Below, in pieces: positions 31,659 to 44,416 of a stretch of 64,000 bases of DNA; positions within the stretch are counted from its first letter, which is position 1; every line of letters begins with the position of its first letter. Both the position numbers and the translations under genes were made by a program. The notes under the pieces are model-generated. The model saw only the letters and a program-made list of their open reading frames with translations, did no database searches and was not told the origin of the DNA. This DNA comes from Verrucomicrobiia bacterium (GTDB lineage Bacteria > Verrucomicrobiota > Verrucomicrobiia > Verrucomicrobiales > DEV007), in contig JAUICH010000001.1 in assembly GCA_030427505.1 (NCBI GenBank), positions 620,001 through 684,000 on the forward strand, given 5' to 3'.

Positions 31659-31671
31659 GGGTGATATTCAA

Positions 31672-32856
31672 ATGAACACCAATGGGGGCAGAAATTCGAA
31701 ACGTCTTCACTCTCTTGAGCTTTTCACGGGAGCGGGTGGTTTAGCCATCGCGACCCACCACGCCGGGTTCCGTCACCGGGGACTTTTCGAGTGGAACCGG
31801 AACGCCTGTCAGACGCTGCGCGAAAACGCCGCCAAGAATGTGCTTCCGGGCATTAAATCCTGGGACATCCATGAGGGGGACGTGCGTCCGGTGGACTTTG
31901 CGTCGTACGGAGAGGTGGATCTCATCGCGGGCGGGCCGCCGTGTCAGCCTTTCAGCATCGGTGGGAAACACCGGGGCATGGAGGATGGCCGGGACATGAT
32001 CCCGCAATTTATCCGCGCGGTGCGGGAGACGCTGCCCAAGGCCTTTATCATGGAGAACGTGAAGGGCCTGACCCGCCAGTCCTTCCTGAACTACTTCAAA
32101 TACACCGAGCTTCAGCTCAAGTATCCAGCGGTTTCCCGGCAGCCGTCCGAGAGCTGGATGGATCACCTGGCGCGGCTGGAGAAAGTATATACCGGCAAAA
32201 AGCAGCCCGAGATTCGCTATAAAGTGTTGTACCGCGTTCTGAACTCCGCGAACTTTGGCGTGGCGCAAACTCGCGAGCGGATTTTCTTGGTGGGTTTTCG
32301 TTCGGACATTTCCGCGAAGTGGAGTTTCCCTGATGCCACCCACACTCTGGACCGGCTGCTCTTCGATCAATGGGTCACTGGCGACTACTGGGAGCGCCAC
32401 GGCCTGCGCCAGCCAGCGGGTCCGCCGAAGCGTTTCGAAAGCCGGGTTCGCCGGCTTCGGGACTGGCTGCCCACGAATGAAAAACCCTGGAGAACGATCC
32501 GGGACGCGATTCGCGATCTTCCCGAGCCCGCGACCGGGCCGTGCCTGGATGATCCCTTTAACCACCGCGTCCAGCCAGGGGCGCGGGCCTACAAGGGCCA
32601 CACCGGCAGCCCCATCGACCTGCCGTCCAAAACGCTGAAGGCGGGCGACCACGGCGTGCCCGGTGGAGAGAACATGATCGCTTTTCCCGACGAGAGCGTT
32701 CGTTACCTGACGGTCAGGGAGGCTGCCCGGGTCCAGTCCTTTCCCGATCAATGGCATTTCGACGGCGCCTGGACGGAGATCATGCGCCAGTTGGGCAACG
32801 CGGTTCCGGTTGACCTTGCGCGAGTGGTGGCTTCGAGTGTAGCGTCGAAGCTTTAG
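31672..32856 (+). CDS. DNA (cytosine-5-)-methyltransferase of a type II system
   Basis: 394 aa. All core C5-methylase motifs are in order: I (LELFTGAGGLA, about 15-25), IV (GGPPCQPFS with nucleophile C91), VI (MENVKG), VIII (QTRERIF), IX (TVREAARVQSFPD) and X (RQLGNAVPV). The target-recognition region lies between VIII and IX. The next gene is an Eco29kI-type nuclease, so recognition of CCGCGG is plausible but inferred. Its stop codon TAG coincides with the left end of the inserted element at 32856. Confidence 0.93.
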   Translation: MNTNGGRNSKRLHSLELFTGAGGLAIATHHAGFRHRGLFEWNRNACQTLRENAAKNVLPGIKSWDIHEGDVRPVDFASYGEVDLIAGGPPCQPFSIGGKHRGMEDGRDMIPQFIRAVRETLPKAFIMENVKGLTRQSFLNYFKYTELQLKYPAVSRQPSESWMDHLARLEKVYTGKKQPEIRYKVLYRVLNSANFGVAQTRERIFLVGFRSDISAKWSFPDATHTLDRLLFDQWVTGDYWERHGLRQPAGPPKRFESRVRRLRDWLPTNEKPWRTIRDAIRDLPEPATGPCLDDPFNHRVQPGARAYKGHTGSPIDLPSKTLKAGDHGVPGGENMIAFPDESVRYLTVREAARVQSFPDQWHFDGAWTEIMRQLGNAVPVDLARVVASSVASKL

Positions 32857-33062
32857 GCAGCGTGGACAAATTGGAGAACGGACCGGAAATGAAGAAAGGG
32901 AACTCAGCGCCGCGAAGCGGCGAGTACCTGGAGACGCGGCCCATTTTTCGCCTGGCTTTGTTCCCGCTCACTCTATTGGGGGTAGGCCCAATGCCGTTCA
33001 CGGCGCCTTGCCAGACAAAAAATGCTCTCGCGCCGGTCCGCCCCCAATTTGTCCACACTGCC
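32856..33062. mobile_element. 207-bp MITE-like element inserted between methyltransferase and restriction genes
   Basis: Terminal inverted repeats of about 30 bases: the left end GGCAGCGTGGACAAATTGG and the reverse complement of the right end, GGCAGTGTGGACAAATTGG, continue with matching CGGACCGG. TA flanks both sides, as expected from a TA-target (Tc1/mariner-IS630 type) insertion. The inside has short hairpins and no gene. Removing it with one TA restores TAGAGCATG, that is, the methylase stop 3 bases before the nuclease ATG. Confidence 0.85.
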
Positions 33063-33068
33063 TAGAGC

Positions 33069-33662
33069 ATGTCCGAGGAGAAACCTTACGATCCTCTTAA
33101 CTACGAGACCATAACGGACAATCTCGTCCGTCGACTACTCGACCGGGCGCCCGTTTCCCTTCCCCCGGGTAAGGTATTCTCGGGTCCTGGGATATATCTG
33201 CTCTACTATAAGGGAGATTTCGCTCCGTATGGCGCCTATCGTTTCACCGAAGAAACACAGACGCCGGTCTATGTGGGAAAGGCCATGCCGGAGGGAGCCC
33301 GCAAAGGAGGAGGAGAGTTCGATCTAACCAAGAAATCCCTGCACAAGCGGCTAAAAGAACACGCCCGTTCGGTTGAAAAGGTGGAGAACCTTGTTTTGGA
33401 AGATTTCCAATGCCGCTATCTCGTCGTCGAGCCAGTCTGGATTCCGCTGGCCGAACGGTTTTTGATTCAGCGTTATCAGCCTATTTGGAACGTCTGTATT
33501 GACGGGTTTGGGATTCATGACCCCGGTGGCGGGCGGCGTAAAGGTGCCGCGTCTTGGTGGGATGTTCTGCACCCGGGCCGGCCCTGGGCTGGCGTTTCCA
33601 AAGAAGGCAAAACTCCGGAAGCCGCCCTTGAAAAGCTCCAAAAGCATACCGCTTCGGAGTAG
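33069..33662 (+). CDS. Eco29kI-family GIY-YIG type II restriction endonuclease
   Basis: 197 aa. GIY-YIG nuclease fold: GIYLLYY and VYVGKA hold the two tyrosines; RLKEH holds the conserved Arg and His; PLAERFLI and PIWN hold the metal-binding Glu and Asn. The closing IDGFGIHDPGGGRR and LHPGRPWA are typical of the Eco29kI group (cuts CCGCGG). It is paired with the C5 methyltransferase upstream, from which it is now separated by the 207-bp element. It converges on vsr, 16 bases apart. Confidence 0.87.
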   Translation: MSEEKPYDPLNYETITDNLVRRLLDRAPVSLPPGKVFSGPGIYLLYYKGDFAPYGAYRFTEETQTPVYVGKAMPEGARKGGGEFDLTKKSLHKRLKEHARSVEKVENLVLEDFQCRYLVVEPVWIPLAERFLIQRYQPIWNVCIDGFGIHDPGGGRRKGAASWWDVLHPGRPWAGVSKEGKTPEAALEKLQKHTASE

Positions 33663-33678
33663 GAAGAGATCACGGTCT

Positions 33679-34104
33679 TCAGTCGAGAAATGCCCGGATA
33701 TTGTCTGCCAACTCTTCGGGCTTCTCTGTCTCACACTCCCAAATCACCAGAAACTCCCAGCCCATGGCTTTCAGCTTTTTCTGGTTCTCCTTATCCCGGC
33801 GGGCATTGCCCAGAAGCTTATCTTTCCAGAAAGCTTTGGTCTCAGGAGATTTAGGTAGACGGCATCTTGGGCACCCTTTGTGCCGGTGCCAATAGCAGCC
33901 ATGAACGAAAATGGCTTTCTTTCGCTTACGGAATACCAGATCGGGTTTACCCGGAAGATCCTTGGCGTGTAGCCGATAGCGGTACCCCATGGAATGCACC
34001 AACCGCCGGACCCTCATCTCCGGCTTGGTATCCTTTCCGCGCACCAAGCCCATGCGGGTGCTCCGTTCCTTTTCGGAGAGGGTGTCTAGACTACTTTTTG
34101 GCAT
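33679..34104 (-). CDS. vsr: Very short patch repair endonuclease Vsr
   Basis: 141 aa. Vsr nicks at T:G mismatches that arise when 5-methylcytosine deaminates, so it belongs with a C5 methylase. Key residues: RMGLVRGKDTKPEMRVR at the N-terminus, catalytic D55 in KPDLVF, H69 in FVHGCYWH, and zinc ligands C70, H73, C78 and C81 (CYWHRHKGCPRC). It is the third gene of the restriction-modification cassette but on the opposite strand. Confidence 0.93.
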   Translation of the reverse strand: MPKSSLDTLSEKERSTRMGLVRGKDTKPEMRVRRLVHSMGYRYRLHAKDLPGKPDLVFRKRKKAIFVHGCYWHRHKGCPRCRLPKSPETKAFWKDKLLGNARRDKENQKKLKAMGWEFLVIWECETEKPEELADNIRAFLD

Positions 34105-34246: not shown

Positions 34247-34321
34247 CGTGTGACCGCAACCAAGCCACCTCCCGGCTCCCCATTCCCGCTTGATCTTCCT
34301 CCGCTGGTAAGGGATAAGTAA

Positions 34322-34341
34322 AACTGTTCCAATGAACAGTT
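34322..34341 (+). promoter_or_regulatory. LexA operator of the imuA-imuB-dnaE2 operon
   Basis: AACTGTTC-CAAT-GAACAGTT is a perfect 8-bp palindrome with a 4-base spacer. Its core TGTTC-N4-GAACA (34325-34338) is the motif I recall as the verrucomicrobial LexA box. It overlaps the imuA ATG (34332), so a bound repressor would block both transcription and the leaderless start region. Confidence 0.8.
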
Positions 34342-35096
34342 ACCCTTCAGAGGCGGCTCGCGCCAAGATTATTGCCCTGCCTGGGCTGCCGGATACGGTG
34401 GGCTGGGGGAGCCAGGGCATCCGCACGGCGTCCGCCGAAATGGAGCGGGCGCGGGCGCTGGAGAAGGACGGCTTTCCCACCGGGGTGCCCTGCCTGGACG
34501 CGGTGGGGCTGCAAAAGGGATCGATCAATGAAGTGGTGGCCGAGGGGCCGGGCGCGGGCGCGGGCCTGCTGCTGGATCAACTGCTGGCGGGCGGACCGGG
34601 TCAAGGGCAGGGAAACGGCTACGTGGCCCTGATCGACGGGAGCGATAGCTTCGATCCGCGCTCGGCGGGCGTGGCGCCGGGGGGATTGCGCCGCCTGCTC
34701 TGGCTGCGCTGTCAGCGGGGCGCGGCGGAGGCCCTGAAGGCGGCGGACTGGCTGCTGCGGGACGGAAATTTATCCCTGGTGGTGCTGGACCTGCACCTGA
34801 ACCCGGGCCGGGAGTTTCGCCGCGTGCCGGGCAGCACCTGGCACCGGCTGCGGCTCCAGGCGGAGACCACGGGGGCCGTGCTGCTGGCCTTGACGCCGGA
34901 AAAGCTGCTCTCCTGCGCCCAGACGCGGCTGCGGCTGAGCGAGCGCTTCAGCCTGGCGGCCTTTGACACGCCGCGCGAGCGCCTGGTCCTGCACCCGGCG
35001 GTGGAGCGGCGCCAGCTCCGCCCCGCCTGGGGACCCACGAAGGCGAACCCGGACCGGGCGGCGGCGGGGGGAGACGCGGTGGAACGAATGGCCTGA
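34332..35096 (+). CDS. imuA: ImuA-like mutasome protein
   Basis: 254 aa. RecA/SulA-like fold without intact nucleotide-binding motifs: TGVPCLDAVGLQKGSINEVVAEGPGAGAGLLLDQLLAG, where the Walker A position is degenerate; then YVALIDGSDSFDPRSAG and RLLWLRC. The C-terminal RLRLSERFSLAAFDTPRERL is typical of ImuA/ImuA2. It acts with ImuB and DnaE2 in SOS translesion synthesis. First gene of the operon; a LexA box overlaps its ATG. Confidence 0.82.
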   Translation: MNSYPSEAARAKIIALPGLPDTVGWGSQGIRTASAEMERARALEKDGFPTGVPCLDAVGLQKGSINEVVAEGPGAGAGLLLDQLLAGGPGQGQGNGYVALIDGSDSFDPRSAGVAPGGLRRLLWLRCQRGAAEALKAADWLLRDGNLSLVVLDLHLNPGREFRRVPGSTWHRLRLQAETTGAVLLALTPEKLLSCAQTRLRLSERFSLAAFDTPRERLVLHPAVERRQLRPAWGPTKANPDRAAAGGDAVERMA

Positions 35097-35321
35097 CCCC
35101 GATGGGTGGGGGGAGTAAGGAAGGCCGGCGGACGCAACGAAGGCGAGAACGAAGCATCAGCAGCATCAGCACAACACCCCCGGCCCAGCCCGGCTAAGCC
35201 AAACCCATCCGCGAACCAAGCAGTCAAGCAATCCACCGACCTACCGACCCACCAATCAATCAATCCGCACCCGCAAAGCGGAAGTAGAAGAAGACTCCCC
35301 CCTCCATCACGACGACTATCT

Positions 35322-36911
35322 ATGTATGCGGCGATCCATCTCGTGGAGTTCGGGCTCCAGGCGCGGCTGCGGCGGCTGCTGGAGGCCGGCCTGGCGGAGA
35401 CGCCCGTGGCCCTGCTGGACACCGCGGACGACGCGGACGACGCGGAGGCTGGCCGGAAGAAGGCGCCCATCGTGGCCCTGACCGCCGCGGCCCGGCGGGC
35501 GGGGGTGGAGCCGGGGATGACGGCGGTAAAGGGGCTGGCCCGGTGCGGCGCGTTGCGGGTGCTTGTCCGCTGCCCGGAGGCGGAGCGGGAGGCCGGTCAA
35601 CTGCTCGCCACGCTGGCGGAGCGTTGCACGCCGGACTTTGAAGAGACCGCGCCCGGCGTGGTGACGCTGGACCTTTTCGGCTCCCGCCAGTGGAGCGGCG
35701 GCGGGCGGGAGGCGGAGCTGGGCCGGCGCGTCGTGGCGGAGCTGGCGGCCCAGCGCCTCCATGCCCGGGTGGGCTTCGCGGAGAATCCGGACCTGGCCCT
35801 GCTGGTGGCGAAGCGCGCCCCGGCGGCGGAGCCCGTGGCCGTGCTGGCCGCCCGCGCGGAGGAGGCGCGGGACTTCCTCGCCCCGCTCCCGGTGGCCGCG
35901 CTGGAGCCGCCGCCCCGCATTACGGAGGTGCTAAGCCTCTGGGGCGTGCGCACCCTGGGGGACTTCACCCGGCTGCGGAAGGACGAGATCGCCGACCGCC
36001 TGGGGCCGGAGGGCGTGGCGCTCTGGGAATGCGCCGCGGGCCGGCGGCAGCGCCTGCTCCGCCTGGTGCGGCCCGTACCGGAGTTCGCGCGGGAGATGGA
36101 GTTCGACTACGAGGTGGAGACCCTGGAGCCGCTCCTCTTTGCCCTGCGGCGGCTTCTGGAAACCCTCTGCGCCCGGCTCGCGGCGGACTGGAAGGCGGCG
36201 GGGGAGATCCGGCTGCGGCTGGACTTTTCGCGGGGCGAGCCCTACGCGCGCGACTTCCGCGTGCCGGACCCGTGTTGCGACGTGGACCTGCTCTTCCGCA
36301 TGCTGCACGCGCACCTGGAGGACTTCACGGCGGACTCGCCCATCGTGGGCCTGCGGTTGGAAGCCCTGCCCGCCCGGGTGGGCAAGCAGCAGGTCCACCT
36401 CTTTGAGTCCGGCCTGAAAGACCCGAACCGCTTTACCGAGACGCTGGCCCGGCTGGAGGCCCTGCTCGGCTCAGGACGGGTGGGCACGCCGGAGCTGCCG
36501 GACACGCATCGCCCGGACGCCTTCGAGCTCCAGCCCTTCCGCGAACGCCAGCCGGGTGAGGAAGAAAGGAAGAAAAAAAAGAAGACCCACCCTGACACTA
36601 CCACCGCCGCCCTCGCCCGGGAGCCGGTGCCGCACACGCCCGTCCGGCTGGGGCTGCCGCTCCACCGCTTCCGCCCCCCTTTGCAGGCGGGGGTCACGCT
36701 TTCCCGCGAGAGCAAGCGCCCCGCCGCCATTCACTCCGGCGGCATACGCGGCACGGTGCGGGACTGCCGGGGACCCTGGCTGACCTCCGGCGACTGGTGG
36801 GACCGCGCCCGCTGGTCGCGCCTGGAGTGGGACATCCAGCTCGCCGACGGCCGCATTTACCTGCTGGTGAAGGAGGAGGAACACTGGAAGCTGGAGGGCG
36901 TCTATGGCTGA
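35322..36911 (+). CDS. imuB: Y-family polymerase-like protein ImuB
   Basis: 529 aa from the ATG at 35322 (MYAAIHLVEFGLQ); the longer frame from 35106 codes a low-complexity leader and is rejected. It has a Y-family palm/finger/little-finger layout. The catalytic acidic residues of active polymerases are missing: LVEFGLQA stands where DMDAFFA occurs in DinB. This matches ImuB, a non-catalytic adaptor that links DnaE2 to the beta clamp. A Lys-rich linker (EEERKKKKKTH) precedes the C-terminal domain (GIRGTVRDCRGPWLTSGDWW). It overlaps dnaE2 by 8 bases. The 225-base gap before it has a CAAT-type simple repeat and no gene. Confidence 0.9.
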   Translation: MYAAIHLVEFGLQARLRRLLEAGLAETPVALLDTADDADDAEAGRKKAPIVALTAAARRAGVEPGMTAVKGLARCGALRVLVRCPEAEREAGQLLATLAERCTPDFEETAPGVVTLDLFGSRQWSGGGREAELGRRVVAELAAQRLHARVGFAENPDLALLVAKRAPAAEPVAVLAARAEEARDFLAPLPVAALEPPPRITEVLSLWGVRTLGDFTRLRKDEIADRLGPEGVALWECAAGRRQRLLRLVRPVPEFAREMEFDYEVETLEPLLFALRRLLETLCARLAADWKAAGEIRLRLDFSRGEPYARDFRVPDPCCDVDLLFRMLHAHLEDFTADSPIVGLRLEALPARVGKQQVHLFESGLKDPNRFTETLARLEALLGSGRVGTPELPDTHRPDAFELQPFRERQPGEEERKKKKKTHPDTTTAALAREPVPHTPVRLGLPLHRFRPPLQAGVTLSRESKRPAAIHSGGIRGTVRDCRGPWLTSGDWWDRARWSRLEWDIQLADGRIYLLVKEEEHWKLEGVYG

Positions 36912-39900
36912 CGGTAAAACTAAGCCAAACGGAACAACGGCAGCCGCGAGGTCGGCAGCGGCGGCGGCGGACTACGTGGAACTCCACGCCCGCAGCGCCT
37001 TCAGCTTTCACCACGGGGCCTCCCACCCGGAGGACATGGTGCGCCGCGCGGCGGAGCTGGGCATGCCCGCTCTGGCCCTGCTGGACCGGGACGGCGTGTA
37101 TGGATCCGCCCGCGCCCACTACGCGGCGGCGGAGCTGCGCCAGGAACAGGGCGTCGAGATCCGTCCCCTGACCGGCGCGGAAGTGACGCTGGAGGGAGAG
37201 ATCGCGCTGCCCCTCCTGGTCCGCACCCGGGAAGGCTACCAGAACCTCTGCCGCCTGATCACCCGGGCTAAGCTGCGCGGCCTGCCGCCTGAAACGGCGC
37301 GGGCCCATCCCTTCCTGAACCCCCGCAAAGACGGCCGGGTGCGCTGGGAGGAACTGGAGGAATTTTCCGAAGGCCTCATCGCCCTGACCGGGGATGAGGA
37401 AGGGCCCCTGCGCCAGGCCCTGGCGGGGGGGAATAAGGCGCTGGCGGAAGAGCGCCTGCGCTTCCTGCTTAGGACCTATGGTAGCGACGGCGTCGCCGTG
37501 GAACTCCAGCGCCACCGCGTGCGCGGGGAAGACTGGGCCAACCGCTGCCTCGTGGACCTGGCGGCGGCGCGCCGCCTGCCCCTCATCGCCACCAACGGCG
37601 CGGGCTTTGCCCGGAAGCAGGGCCGCTTGTTGTTCGATGCCTTTGCCTGCCTGCGCCACCACACCCCGTTGGACGCGGCGGGCACCCTGCTGGCGCCAAA
37701 CGCGGAGCGCTATCTAAAGAGCGCGCGGCAGATGGCGGAACTCTTCGCCGACCACCCGGAGGCCCTTACCAATACCCGCCGCCTCGCGGACCGGGTGGAG
37801 TTTACCCTGGAAAACCTGGGCTACCGCTTCCCCGATTATCCCGTGCCGGACGGCGTCACCGTGCCAGGCTTCCTGCGGGAGGAAGTCTACAAAGGCGCGA
37901 AAGGCCGCTATGGGAAGATAACCAAAAAAGTAAGAAAACAGCTCGATCACGAGCTGACCCTCATCGAAAAGCTTGGCTTCTGCGGGTATTTCCTCATCGT
38001 ATGGGACATCGTCAATTTCGCCCGCGCCCACCACATCCTGGTGCAGGGGCGGGGCTCGGCGGCGAACTCGGCGGTCTGCTACTGCCTGGGCATCACGGCG
38101 GTGGACGCCATCAAGCAGAAGCTCCTCTTCGAACGCTTCCTCTCCGAAGGCCGCAACAGCTGGCCGGACATTGACCTGGACCTGCCCAGCGGCGACCGGC
38201 GGGAGGCCGTCATCCAGGGCGTGTTCGAAAAGTACCAGCCCCTCGGCGCCGCCATGACGGCGAATGTCATCACCTATCGGGGCCGCTCCGCGATGCGGGA
38301 GATGGGGAAAGTGTTAGGCATTCCCGAGGATACCCTGGGCCGCTTTTCCAGCTCCTGGGGCAGCGCCCGCATCCAGAACGCGGAAGAACTGCGCGTCCTC
38401 ATCCGGGAGTCCGGCCTGGCGGAGCAGCACCCGCGCCTGCCCGCCCTGGTGCATCTTTACCAGAGCGTCTATGGCCTGCCCAGGCACCTCGGCCAGCACT
38501 CCGGCGGCATGATCATTTCCGACCGGCCGCTGGACAGCGTGGTGCCCCTGGAAAACGCCACCATGGAAAACCGCCGCGTCGTGCAGTGGGACAAGGACGA
38601 CTGCGAAGACCTCGGCATCATCAAAGTGGACTTGTTAGGGATCGGCATGCTGGCCGCCATGCAGGACACCGCCGAACTCTGCCGGGAACGCGGCCGGCCC
38701 ATCGACCTCGCGGACCTCCCGGCGGACGACCCCGCCACCTTTGAAATGTTGCGGCGGGCGGACACCATCGGCGTCTTCCAGGTGGAGTCCCGCGCCCAGA
38801 TGGCCACGCTGCCCCGGATGAAGCCGGACACCTTCTACGACCTGGTGGTGGAAGTCGCCATCATCCGCCCCGGCCCCATCGTGGGAAACATGGTCCACCC
38901 TTACCTGAACCGCCGGGCGGGGAGAGAAAAGATCGACTACATTGACGACCGCTTCCGGCCCGCGCTGGAGCGCACCCTGGGCATCCCCCTTTTCCAAGAG
39001 CAGGTGCTCCAGATGGCGATGATCGCCGCGGACTTCAACGGCAGCGAGGCCGAGGCCCTGCGGCGGGCCATCAGCTTCCACCGCTCCGAGGAACGCATGT
39101 CCAAGGTCATGATAAAACTCCGCTCCGCGATGGAGCGCAAAGGCGTGCCCCGCGAGACCCAGGAGCGCATCGTGTCCTCCATCCAGAGCTTCGCGTTGTA
39201 TGGCTTCCCCGAGAGTCACGCCATCAGCTTTGCCTTGCTGGCCTATGCCTCCGCGTGGTTGAAGGTGCACCGCGCGGCGGAGTTCTACGTGGGCCTCATG
39301 AACAACCAGCCCATGGGCTTCTACAGCCGCGCCACCCTGGTGAAAGACGCGAAGGATCACGGCCTGCGCGTGCGGACCGTGGACGTGACCCTCAGCGCCG
39401 CGCTCTGCACCGTGGAAGACGACCGCACGGTTCGCCTGGGGCTGATGGAAGTCTCCGGCCTCAGCCCGGCCACCGCCGAGCGTATCGTGACCGAACGCGC
39501 CGCCCGGCCCTTTGCTTCGCTGGAAGATTTCATGATCCGCGCCCGGCCCAAGCGGGACGAGCGCCGGGTGCTGGCGAAAGTCGGCGCCCTGAACCCCCTG
39601 CGCAACGCCACCCACCGCCGCGAAGCCCTGTGGAAAGTCGAGAAACCCTTCGACCCCGAGGACCTCTTCGCCTGGCGGGCCGCCCAGGAGTCAGTCTCCC
39701 CGGAAGAAGGCGAAGAGAACGAAACGGCCACCACCGCGGCAACGGCGGACCCCTCCTCTTCTTCCCCCCTGGCGCCCATGGACCGGCTGGAGCGCCTCCA
39801 GGCGGACTTCGACGGGCTGGCGCTAACCACCGGACCTCATCCCATGGCCTACATCCGCGACCGCCTGCCGCCCGGCATCTCGCGGGCTTGTGACCTCATT

Positions 39901-40197
39901 CACGGAAAGATGAACCAGCCCGTCACCATCGCCGGTCTCGTCATCTGCCGCCAGCGTCCCAGCACGGCGAAAGGCCACGTCTTCGTTTCCCTGGAAGATG
40001 AGACCGGCGTCGCCAATGCCTTCGTCCACGAAACCCTCTTCCAGAAATACCGCCACGTCATTCCCCACGAAGCCTTCCTCATGATCCGCGGCCGCCTCCA
40101 GATCCAGCACGGCGTCACCAGCGTCTACGCCCTCCACGCCGAGGGCCTGCCGTTTGAAACCGTCGCCGTCGGGGAGCAGTCGCATGATTTTCGGTGA
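36904..40197 (+). CDS. dnaE2: Error-prone DNA polymerase III alpha subunit DnaE2
   Basis: 1097 aa, the usual DnaE2 length. Ala-rich leader (1-20), PHP domain (ELHARSAFSFHHGASHPEDMVRRA), C-family catalytic core (RGSAANSAVCYCLGIT, then PDIDLDLPSGDRR with the catalytic Asp residues), tandem helix-hairpin-helix region (SGLSPATAERIV...ASLEDFMIR), and C-terminal OB-fold (VTIAGLVICRQRPSTAKG). It performs damage-induced mutagenic synthesis with ImuA and ImuB. Third and last gene of the LexA-controlled operon. Confidence 0.95.
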   Translation: MADGKTKPNGTTAAARSAAAAADYVELHARSAFSFHHGASHPEDMVRRAAELGMPALALLDRDGVYGSARAHYAAAELRQEQGVEIRPLTGAEVTLEGEIALPLLVRTREGYQNLCRLITRAKLRGLPPETARAHPFLNPRKDGRVRWEELEEFSEGLIALTGDEEGPLRQALAGGNKALAEERLRFLLRTYGSDGVAVELQRHRVRGEDWANRCLVDLAAARRLPLIATNGAGFARKQGRLLFDAFACLRHHTPLDAAGTLLAPNAERYLKSARQMAELFADHPEALTNTRRLADRVEFTLENLGYRFPDYPVPDGVTVPGFLREEVYKGAKGRYGKITKKVRKQLDHELTLIEKLGFCGYFLIVWDIVNFARAHHILVQGRGSAANSAVCYCLGITAVDAIKQKLLFERFLSEGRNSWPDIDLDLPSGDRREAVIQGVFEKYQPLGAAMTANVITYRGRSAMREMGKVLGIPEDTLGRFSSSWGSARIQNAEELRVLIRESGLAEQHPRLPALVHLYQSVYGLPRHLGQHSGGMIISDRPLDSVVPLENATMENRRVVQWDKDDCEDLGIIKVDLLGIGMLAAMQDTAELCRERGRPIDLADLPADDPATFEMLRRADTIGVFQVESRAQMATLPRMKPDTFYDLVVEVAIIRPGPIVGNMVHPYLNRRAGREKIDYIDDRFRPALERTLGIPLFQEQVLQMAMIAADFNGSEAEALRRAISFHRSEERMSKVMIKLRSAMERKGVPRETQERIVSSIQSFALYGFPESHAISFALLAYASAWLKVHRAAEFYVGLMNNQPMGFYSRATLVKDAKDHGLRVRTVDVTLSAALCTVEDDRTVRLGLMEVSGLSPATAERIVTERAARPFASLEDFMIRARPKRDERRVLAKVGALNPLRNATHRREALWKVEKPFDPEDLFAWRAAQESVSPEEGEENETATTAATADPSSSSPLAPMDRLERLQADFDGLALTTGPHPMAYIRDRLPPGISRACDLIHGKMNQPVTIAGLVICRQRPSTAKGHVFVSLEDETGVANAFVHETLFQKYRHVIPHEAFLMIRGRLQIQHGVTSVYALHAEGLPFETVAVGEQSHDFR

Positions 40198-44214: not shown

Positions 44215-44416
44215 AAGGTGGTCCTCGACCTCCGGGGTCCGAGCCGGAATGGCAGAATACTCGCGAACTGGGCTCGCGATTCATAGCGGGGGTTGCCTTG
44301 CTCTATGCGCGAACCGGACGGACTTCGTTAGAGAGGGAAAGATGGCCGGTCCAAACGCCTGAGAAAAAGCTGCTTTGCCCTGTTCCCTCGAACGCGCTCG
44401 GAGATCGCGTCCCACC
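44215..44416. repeat. Dispersed ~200-bp repeat, copy B
   Basis: Same family and orientation as 40231-40402, about 30 bases longer. It lies upstream of the ThuA gene, so the two copies flank the CPBP-sulfatase-cupin-ThuA block. The 44136-44459 gap shows no gene. Confidence 0.65.

Follow-up and report, generated by a model that had tools for sequence, protein, structure and literature searches.

A perfect palindrome at the beginning of imuA is very probably a LexA operator. If so, imuA-imuB-dnaE2 would be an SOS-controlled mutagenesis operon, in a bacterium that belongs to the Verrucomicrobiota and probably to the Verrucomicrobiales. The palindrome lies in a window of 64,000 nucleotides, by which is meant the whole stretch of DNA that was analysed, and its coordinates are given with those of the neighbouring features in Table 1. 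An earlier note on this DNA had reported a palindrome carrying the imuA start codon in its spacer and right arm, with a core agreeing with the Verrucomicrobia LexA motif TGTTC-N4-GAACA, and both descriptions proved exact to the base. The A and T of the ATG fall within the spacer and the G within the right arm. In the reading frame of imuA the last in-frame stop is at -17 and the next in-frame start at +73. The window has a single exact copy of the 14-base core, the mean in 100 dinucleotide shuffles being 0.02. A search allowing mismatches gave 244 inverted-repeat pairs of 8 nt or longer within 20 nt in the window, so that a generic hairpin with 8-bp arms is unremarkable.

The reading of this palindrome as a LexA box is upheld by an exact box at the genome's own lexA and by conservation of the imuA box in relatives; binding of LexA and SOS induction at imuA are predictions from these sequences. 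In the proposed mechanism, a LexA dimer on TGTTC-N4-GAACA would cover both the start codon and the downstream promoter edge and so block transcription, and DNA damage would lead to RecA-stimulated self-cleavage of LexA and release of the operon. The transcript would probably begin at the AUG or a few nucleotides from it, as a leaderless or near-leaderless mRNA, which may be why the operator encloses the start codon. The earlier picture, in which the repressor sits on the translation start, is better reworded: LexA would sit on the promoter edge and the probable transcript start, and these would coincide with the start codon.

The predicted SOS regulon is compact, comprising lexA, imuA-imuB-dnaE2, a radical SAM gene of the PA0069 family and probably recA. 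The operator type is already known in the phylum and its placement over a start codon is a modest twist, one that leads to a direct prediction on transcript starts and would couple repression to leaderless translation.

Table 1. Features at the head of the imuA-imuB-dnaE2 operon (window coordinates)
Feature	Position	Strand	Remarks
Possible -35, TTGATC	34290..34295	+	By eye, low confidence
Possible -10, ambiguous	34313..34325	+	GATAAG (34313-34318) or AAAACT (34320-34325), by eye
Perfect inverted repeat (extended LexA box)	34322..34341	none	AACTGTTC-CAAT-GAACAGTT; 8-bp arms, 4-nt spacer
Putative LexA operator core, TGTTC-N4-GAACA	34325..34338	none	14 bases, TGTTCCAATGAACA; motif shared with lexA and the radical SAM gene, kept at imuA of relatives
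imuA start codon, ATG	34332..34334	+	At +7 counted from box base 1
imuA (divergent, RecA-like)	34332..35096	+	254 aa; heads the imuA-imuB-dnaE2 order
imuB (Y-family)	35106..36911	+	PF00817, PF11799; true start uncertain
dnaE2, error-prone DNA polymerase	36904..40197	+	NF004225, 1154 bits (cut-off 939)

The imuA product

The protein specified by imuA (P0001), searched alone, matched no Pfam or NCBIfam family at E≤0.001, and at E≤1 it gave weak RecA matches only. It fell short of the cut-off of the ImuA model NF033429, without a match even at E≤1. This model matched 7 of the 10 members of the P0001 alignment at E≤1 (best 4.4e-7), P0001 not being among these. The profile of the ten-member ImuA alignment matched RecA structures (single-copy RecA chains) with E-values of about 1e-7. 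The name imuA is therefore used on the grounds of gene order and RecA-like homology, for a gene which occupies the ImuA position yet is divergent.

LexA and its predicted sites in the genome

One gene of the window genome (6,408,720 bases in 56 contigs) specifies a LexA DNA-binding domain (PF01726, 72.9 bits), together with an S24 peptidase domain (PF00717, 86.2 bits), and it passes the TIGR00498 LexA equivalog, scoring 158.9 bits (cut-off 110.95). This lexA lies on a different contig from imuA-imuB-dnaE2. An exact box (C37:35256-35269) ends 8 nt before its ATG, with another TGTTC half-site after it. A second S24-peptidase protein, on contig C47, has a helix-turn-helix that differs from that of LexA and may be a phage-type repressor.

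Exact copies of TGTTC-N4-GAACA number eight in the genome, against none for the control, in which the box pattern is read backwards; with up to one mismatch there are 71 sites (control 33), and weaker 16-mer sites with up to two mismatches number 193 (control 92). Since about two exact sites per genome would be expected by chance (a rough figure, from 2 matches in 100 shuffles of the window), the evidence lies in the positions and conservation of the sites more than in their count. Three of the eight adjoin lexA, imuA and the PA0069-family radical SAM gene (NF033668), the box at the last of these stopping 8 nt short of the ATG, and the other five have no clear role. Among the latter, one lies between a Fur-family gene and a gene with a cyclic-nucleotide-binding domain, one about 350 nt from an Hsp20 gene, one near a vsr-methylase pair (C37:84092; L005:1501-1514), and two on contig C52 (L006 and L007), where they share a downstream block. 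About 15 nt beyond each of the C52 boxes (L006:1500-1590, L007:1500-1590) there are some 55 nt of near-identical sequence including a T-rich stretch; the neighbouring ORFs were scanned and had no Pfam match, save an HTH_3 ORF in L007. No SOS gene was recognised at seven one-mismatch loci, judged by eye from the ORF beginnings, and at least four of these seven sites sit inside large ORFs. The regulon may hold further members beyond those recognised.

The check that the earlier note had proposed, for the same motif at lexA and recA of this genome, gave an exact box at lexA, whereas recA has no exact box and offers only a two-mismatch form, TGGACAAATGAACA (L012), of the type TGGAC-N4-GAACA. This asymmetric form is the best recA site in 7 of 30 loci examined in relatives, the own genome included (the others being L191, L197, L201, L204, L208 and L216), and is possibly a weaker operator at recA.

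Conservation in relatives

The search of relatives covered 57 genomes including the own one, with at most 30 loci per gene, best matches first; the counts for each gene include the own genome, and related genomes are non-independent observations. Matches to imuA were found in 29 of the 57 genomes and matches to lexA in 50, from which 30 lexA loci were fetched. For imuA, 28 of 30 loci were usable after L034 (truncated) and L048 (no match) had been left out; the set contains one genome twice (L044 and L049), and L025 and L026 are near-identical. Boxes with no mismatch, up to one and up to two mismatches stand at 15, 21 and 25 of the 28 imuA loci (control 0, 0 and 2) and at 18, 25 and 29 of the 30 lexA loci (control 0, 1 and 3). 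The corresponding figures are 12, 20 and 24 of 30 for the radical SAM gene (control 0, 0 and 3) and 2, 9 and 23 of 30 for recA (control 0, 0 and 2). The lexA promoters often show a tandem arrangement: at 19 of 30 loci (L130-L159) TGTTC comes no more than 2 nt after a box with up to one mismatch, and 16 of the 19 have an ATG that begins at most 2 nt beyond this half-site. In the imuA promoters of L025 and L045, the arms of the palindrome run 11 bp past the 14-bp box, giving unusually long inverted repeats.

Named DnaE2 loci were taken as the best 80 of 463 matches; 16 were dropped because of short upstream sequence, leaving 64 usable. Sorted by the head gene of the operon, boxes with zero, up to one and up to two mismatches were present at 10, 11 and 13 of 27 loci headed by imuA (control 0 at up to one mismatch, 3 at up to two), 13, 13 and 15 of 21 headed by imuB (control 0 and 1), 3, 5 and 7 of 11 headed by dnaE2 (control 0 and 0) and 1, 1 and 1 of 5 headed by lexA (control 0 and 1). 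Altogether, 30 of the 64 have a box with up to one mismatch at the head gene, and in the stretch searched such a box is missing from 34, including 16 of the 27 headed by imuA. The box thus tends to go with whichever gene heads the operon, in many relatives also when the genes stand in another order. No ImuA match at E≤0.01 was obtained in 46 of the 80 loci; some contigs are short there, and elsewhere the operon begins at imuB or dnaE2.

Four of the five lexA-headed cassettes lack a box at up to two mismatches. In three of these four (L068, L071 and L107) a palindrome ACCG-TATAAATATA-CGGT or a near version of it, similar in sequence to ACCGTATAAATATACGGT, was noticed by eye; its end adjoins the lexA ATG. 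The LexA proteins of L068, L071 and L107 are 46-49% identical to that of the window genome, which suggests that the ACCG-type palindrome is a candidate operator for a divergent LexA, here too situated at a start codon.

Start codon, promoter and transcript start

The overlap of start codon and box is real and recurrent. Pooling of relatives and named loci gave 29 distinct imuA boxes, and in six of them (L020, the own genome, and L023, L024, L044, L064 and L065) an in-frame ATG or GTG at +7 is the first listed start after the in-frame stop. Three further boxes (L021, L039, L063) offer the +7 start among several candidates, so that nine of the 29 have it if ambiguous cases are counted. Of the other 20 boxes, 19 have their first listed start, from the box onwards, at +15 to +30, and in the remaining one, L119, the head gene is lexA. 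The +7 register was also seen at the head of a dnaE2 (L057) and at the radical SAM genes of L172, L173 and L184.

A strict sigma-70 scan found no promoter at imuA of the window genome. The hexamers in Table 1 were picked by eye; GATAAG is 17 nt from TTGATC, and the last T of AAAACT is the first T of the box. Among 28 aligned imuA promoters, CTTG[CAG] stands 32 to 18 nt before the box in 13, and it is found 35 nt before the box here. The 5-mer just before the 28 imuA boxes agrees with TATAA at 2.39 of its 5 positions; 5-mers drawn at random from the preceding 25 nt score 1.34, and none of 2000 such draws came up to the observed value. A -10 hexamer could thus have the first T of the box as its last base. 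Scores nearly as high (2.18 and 2.11) belong to the neighbouring offsets -7 and -6, so the -10 register is soft and a general A/T-richness is possible. The lexA promoters do not have the TATAA register (1.28 vs 1.39), and the AAAAC of the window genome matches TATAA at only two of five positions. The usual discriminator is 6 nt long, and with a -10 hexamer ending on the first T of the box this length would put the start of +7-class transcripts on the start codon itself.

We tentatively propose that in Verrucomicrobiales a single 14-bp palindrome at the mutagenesis operon may serve as LexA operator and as transcript start, while also supplying the last part of the -10 element and the start codon of a leaderless mRNA; the near-equal scores of the neighbouring offsets count against this proposal, and we hold it to be somewhat less likely than not. 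The broader statement, that the imuA transcript starts at or near its AUG, has about an even chance of being correct. If the fused element is real, its right arm (ATGAAC or GTGAAC) would set the beginning of the protein as Met-Asn, and operator affinity and the protein N-terminus would evolve together. A Shine-Dalgarno-like match precedes the first ATG in 3 of 37 non-overlapping window ORFs of at least 200 aa, against 15% of random positions, a rough count in that ORF starts were taken as the first ATG; it suggests that initiation in the window genes is mostly of the non-Shine-Dalgarno kind. The missing Shine-Dalgarno sequence at imuA was accordingly dropped as support for a leaderless transcript, since so few of the large window ORFs have one.

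Alternative explanations

The most serious alternative keeps the LexA operator and gives it an ordinary leadered transcript, with the promoter further upstream, LexA acting as a roadblock or by covering the promoter edge, and the start-codon overlap being incidental. We consider this quite possible, at a little under an even chance. The pair TTGATC (34290) and GATAAG (34313), chosen by eye, would with its 17-nt spacer start transcription about 7 nt before the ATG, and 20 of the 29 distinct imuA boxes have no listed in-frame start at +7; on the other side stand the -10-like signal just before the imuA boxes, soft as it is, and the six boxes of 29 that share a first listed start at +7. An RNA hairpin, in which an 8-bp stem in the mRNA would hide the AUG and act on translation rather than transcription, is very unlikely. 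The isolated 28-nt stretch does fold at -8.5 kcal/mol (z -4.5), and the long arms at L025 and L045 would add 11 further pairs, but embedded in 81 nt of sequence the fold is unexceptional (z -0.79). The arms, moreover, are kept as letters and not as pairs: among 26 best sites with exactly two mismatches, drawn from imuA, lexA, the radical SAM gene and recA, none keeps all five pairs. Identical letters also head lexA and the radical SAM gene, and a leaderless mRNA would exclude the left arm.

That recurrence of identical letters at the lexA and radical SAM starts argues equally against an intrinsic terminator on the minus strand, to which we attach almost no credence. A pattern scan does list a stem with a T-rich tail here (one found, against 0.5 in shuffles), but the tail, TTACTTATCC, is poor, and the preceding minus-strand sequence is the complement of imuA. 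A chance palindrome at the start codon is just as hard to credit: the two or so exact sites expected per genome, from the rough window shuffle rate, and the five of eight exact sites without an evident SOS gene would allow it, yet the imuA box is conserved with up to one mismatch in 21 of 28 loci where the control has none.

Relation to known systems

The motif interpreted here as the LexA operator is reportedly that described for Verrucomicrobia in 2016 by Erill, Campoy, Kilic and Barbe, TGTTC-N4-GAACA, whose targets are said to be lexA, recA and a mutagenesis cassette, with tandem sites at lexA. The 14-bp palindrome here is the same and so are the kinds of target, with recA as a probable one, and the tandem lexA sites have their parallel here; the apparent differences are that the present operator contains the imuA start codon and that the recA site is the asymmetric TGGAC-N4-GAACA. 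In the lexA-imuA-imuB-dnaE2 cassettes of other bacteria, imuA-imuB-dnaE2 are under LexA, whereas the lexA of the window genome is found elsewhere, and lexA heads 5 of the 64 usable named loci.

Two more distant systems offer partial likenesses. The lexA of Mycobacterium tuberculosis is leaderless (PMC2897130), and so resembles imuA as an SOS gene with its start codon at the transcript start, which for imuA is a prediction; the organism belongs to a different phylum, and the passages of that report on the leaderless lexA make no mention of an SOS box enclosing the start codon (PMC2897130). In Deinococcus, the radiation/desiccation response motif is described as a repressor site near or overlapping the transcript starts of DNA-repair genes, a title on leaderless mRNAs in Deinococcus being cited there (PMC8072749); in contrast to the present case, the motif differs and the repressor is not LexA (PMC8072749). 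The literature searched, which gives partial coverage, yielded no report of a LexA box containing a start codon and none of leaderless transcripts in Verrucomicrobia.

Taxonomic range of the motif

The earlier note had taken the motif as support for the taxonomic placement. The placement itself is backed by the DnaE2 labels, 79 of the 80 named loci (best 80 of 463) being labelled Verrucomicrobiota and the remaining one, a MAG, Betaproteobacteria; the motif, on the other hand, is not a marker for the whole phylum. At least one exact site occurs in 233 of 288 genomes of the phylum, and family f4, which belongs to the same order as the window genome, has 6-12 exact sites in its six genomes against 0-1 in the control, but in some other lineages the reversed control matches as often or more often (4 sites vs 15 in G274), and the use of the motif as a phylum-wide marker was rejected on account of such lineages without excess. 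Of the 22 genomes of genus g19 (family f2), 19 have 1-3 sites. In the six g19 genomes searched (G036, G043, G047, G049, G052, G055) no LexA match was found and recA is present; the SOS repressor seems to have been lost or to have diverged strongly in this genus.

Restriction-modification genes upstream of imuA

Directly upstream of imuA lies a restriction-modification block (31672-34104) specifying a cytosine methyltransferase, an Eco29kI-type restriction endonuclease (PF09517) and, on the minus strand, a Vsr mismatch endonuclease. LexA control of vsr and its methylase was considered and rejected: none of 16 other vsr loci, several of which are partial matches, has a box with up to one mismatch before vsr, and in the two that carry a box elsewhere it is downstream of the vsr match (L236) or is the window's own imuA site (L250). 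The start of the methyltransferase gene (31672-32856) is held by TATTCAAATGAACA at 31665-31678, one mismatch from the box and in the +7 register like imuA. This site could be due to chance, the genome having 63 one-mismatch sites and the control 33 at up to one mismatch. A further one-mismatch box in the window, TGTTCCCTCGAACG, is located at 44381-44394.
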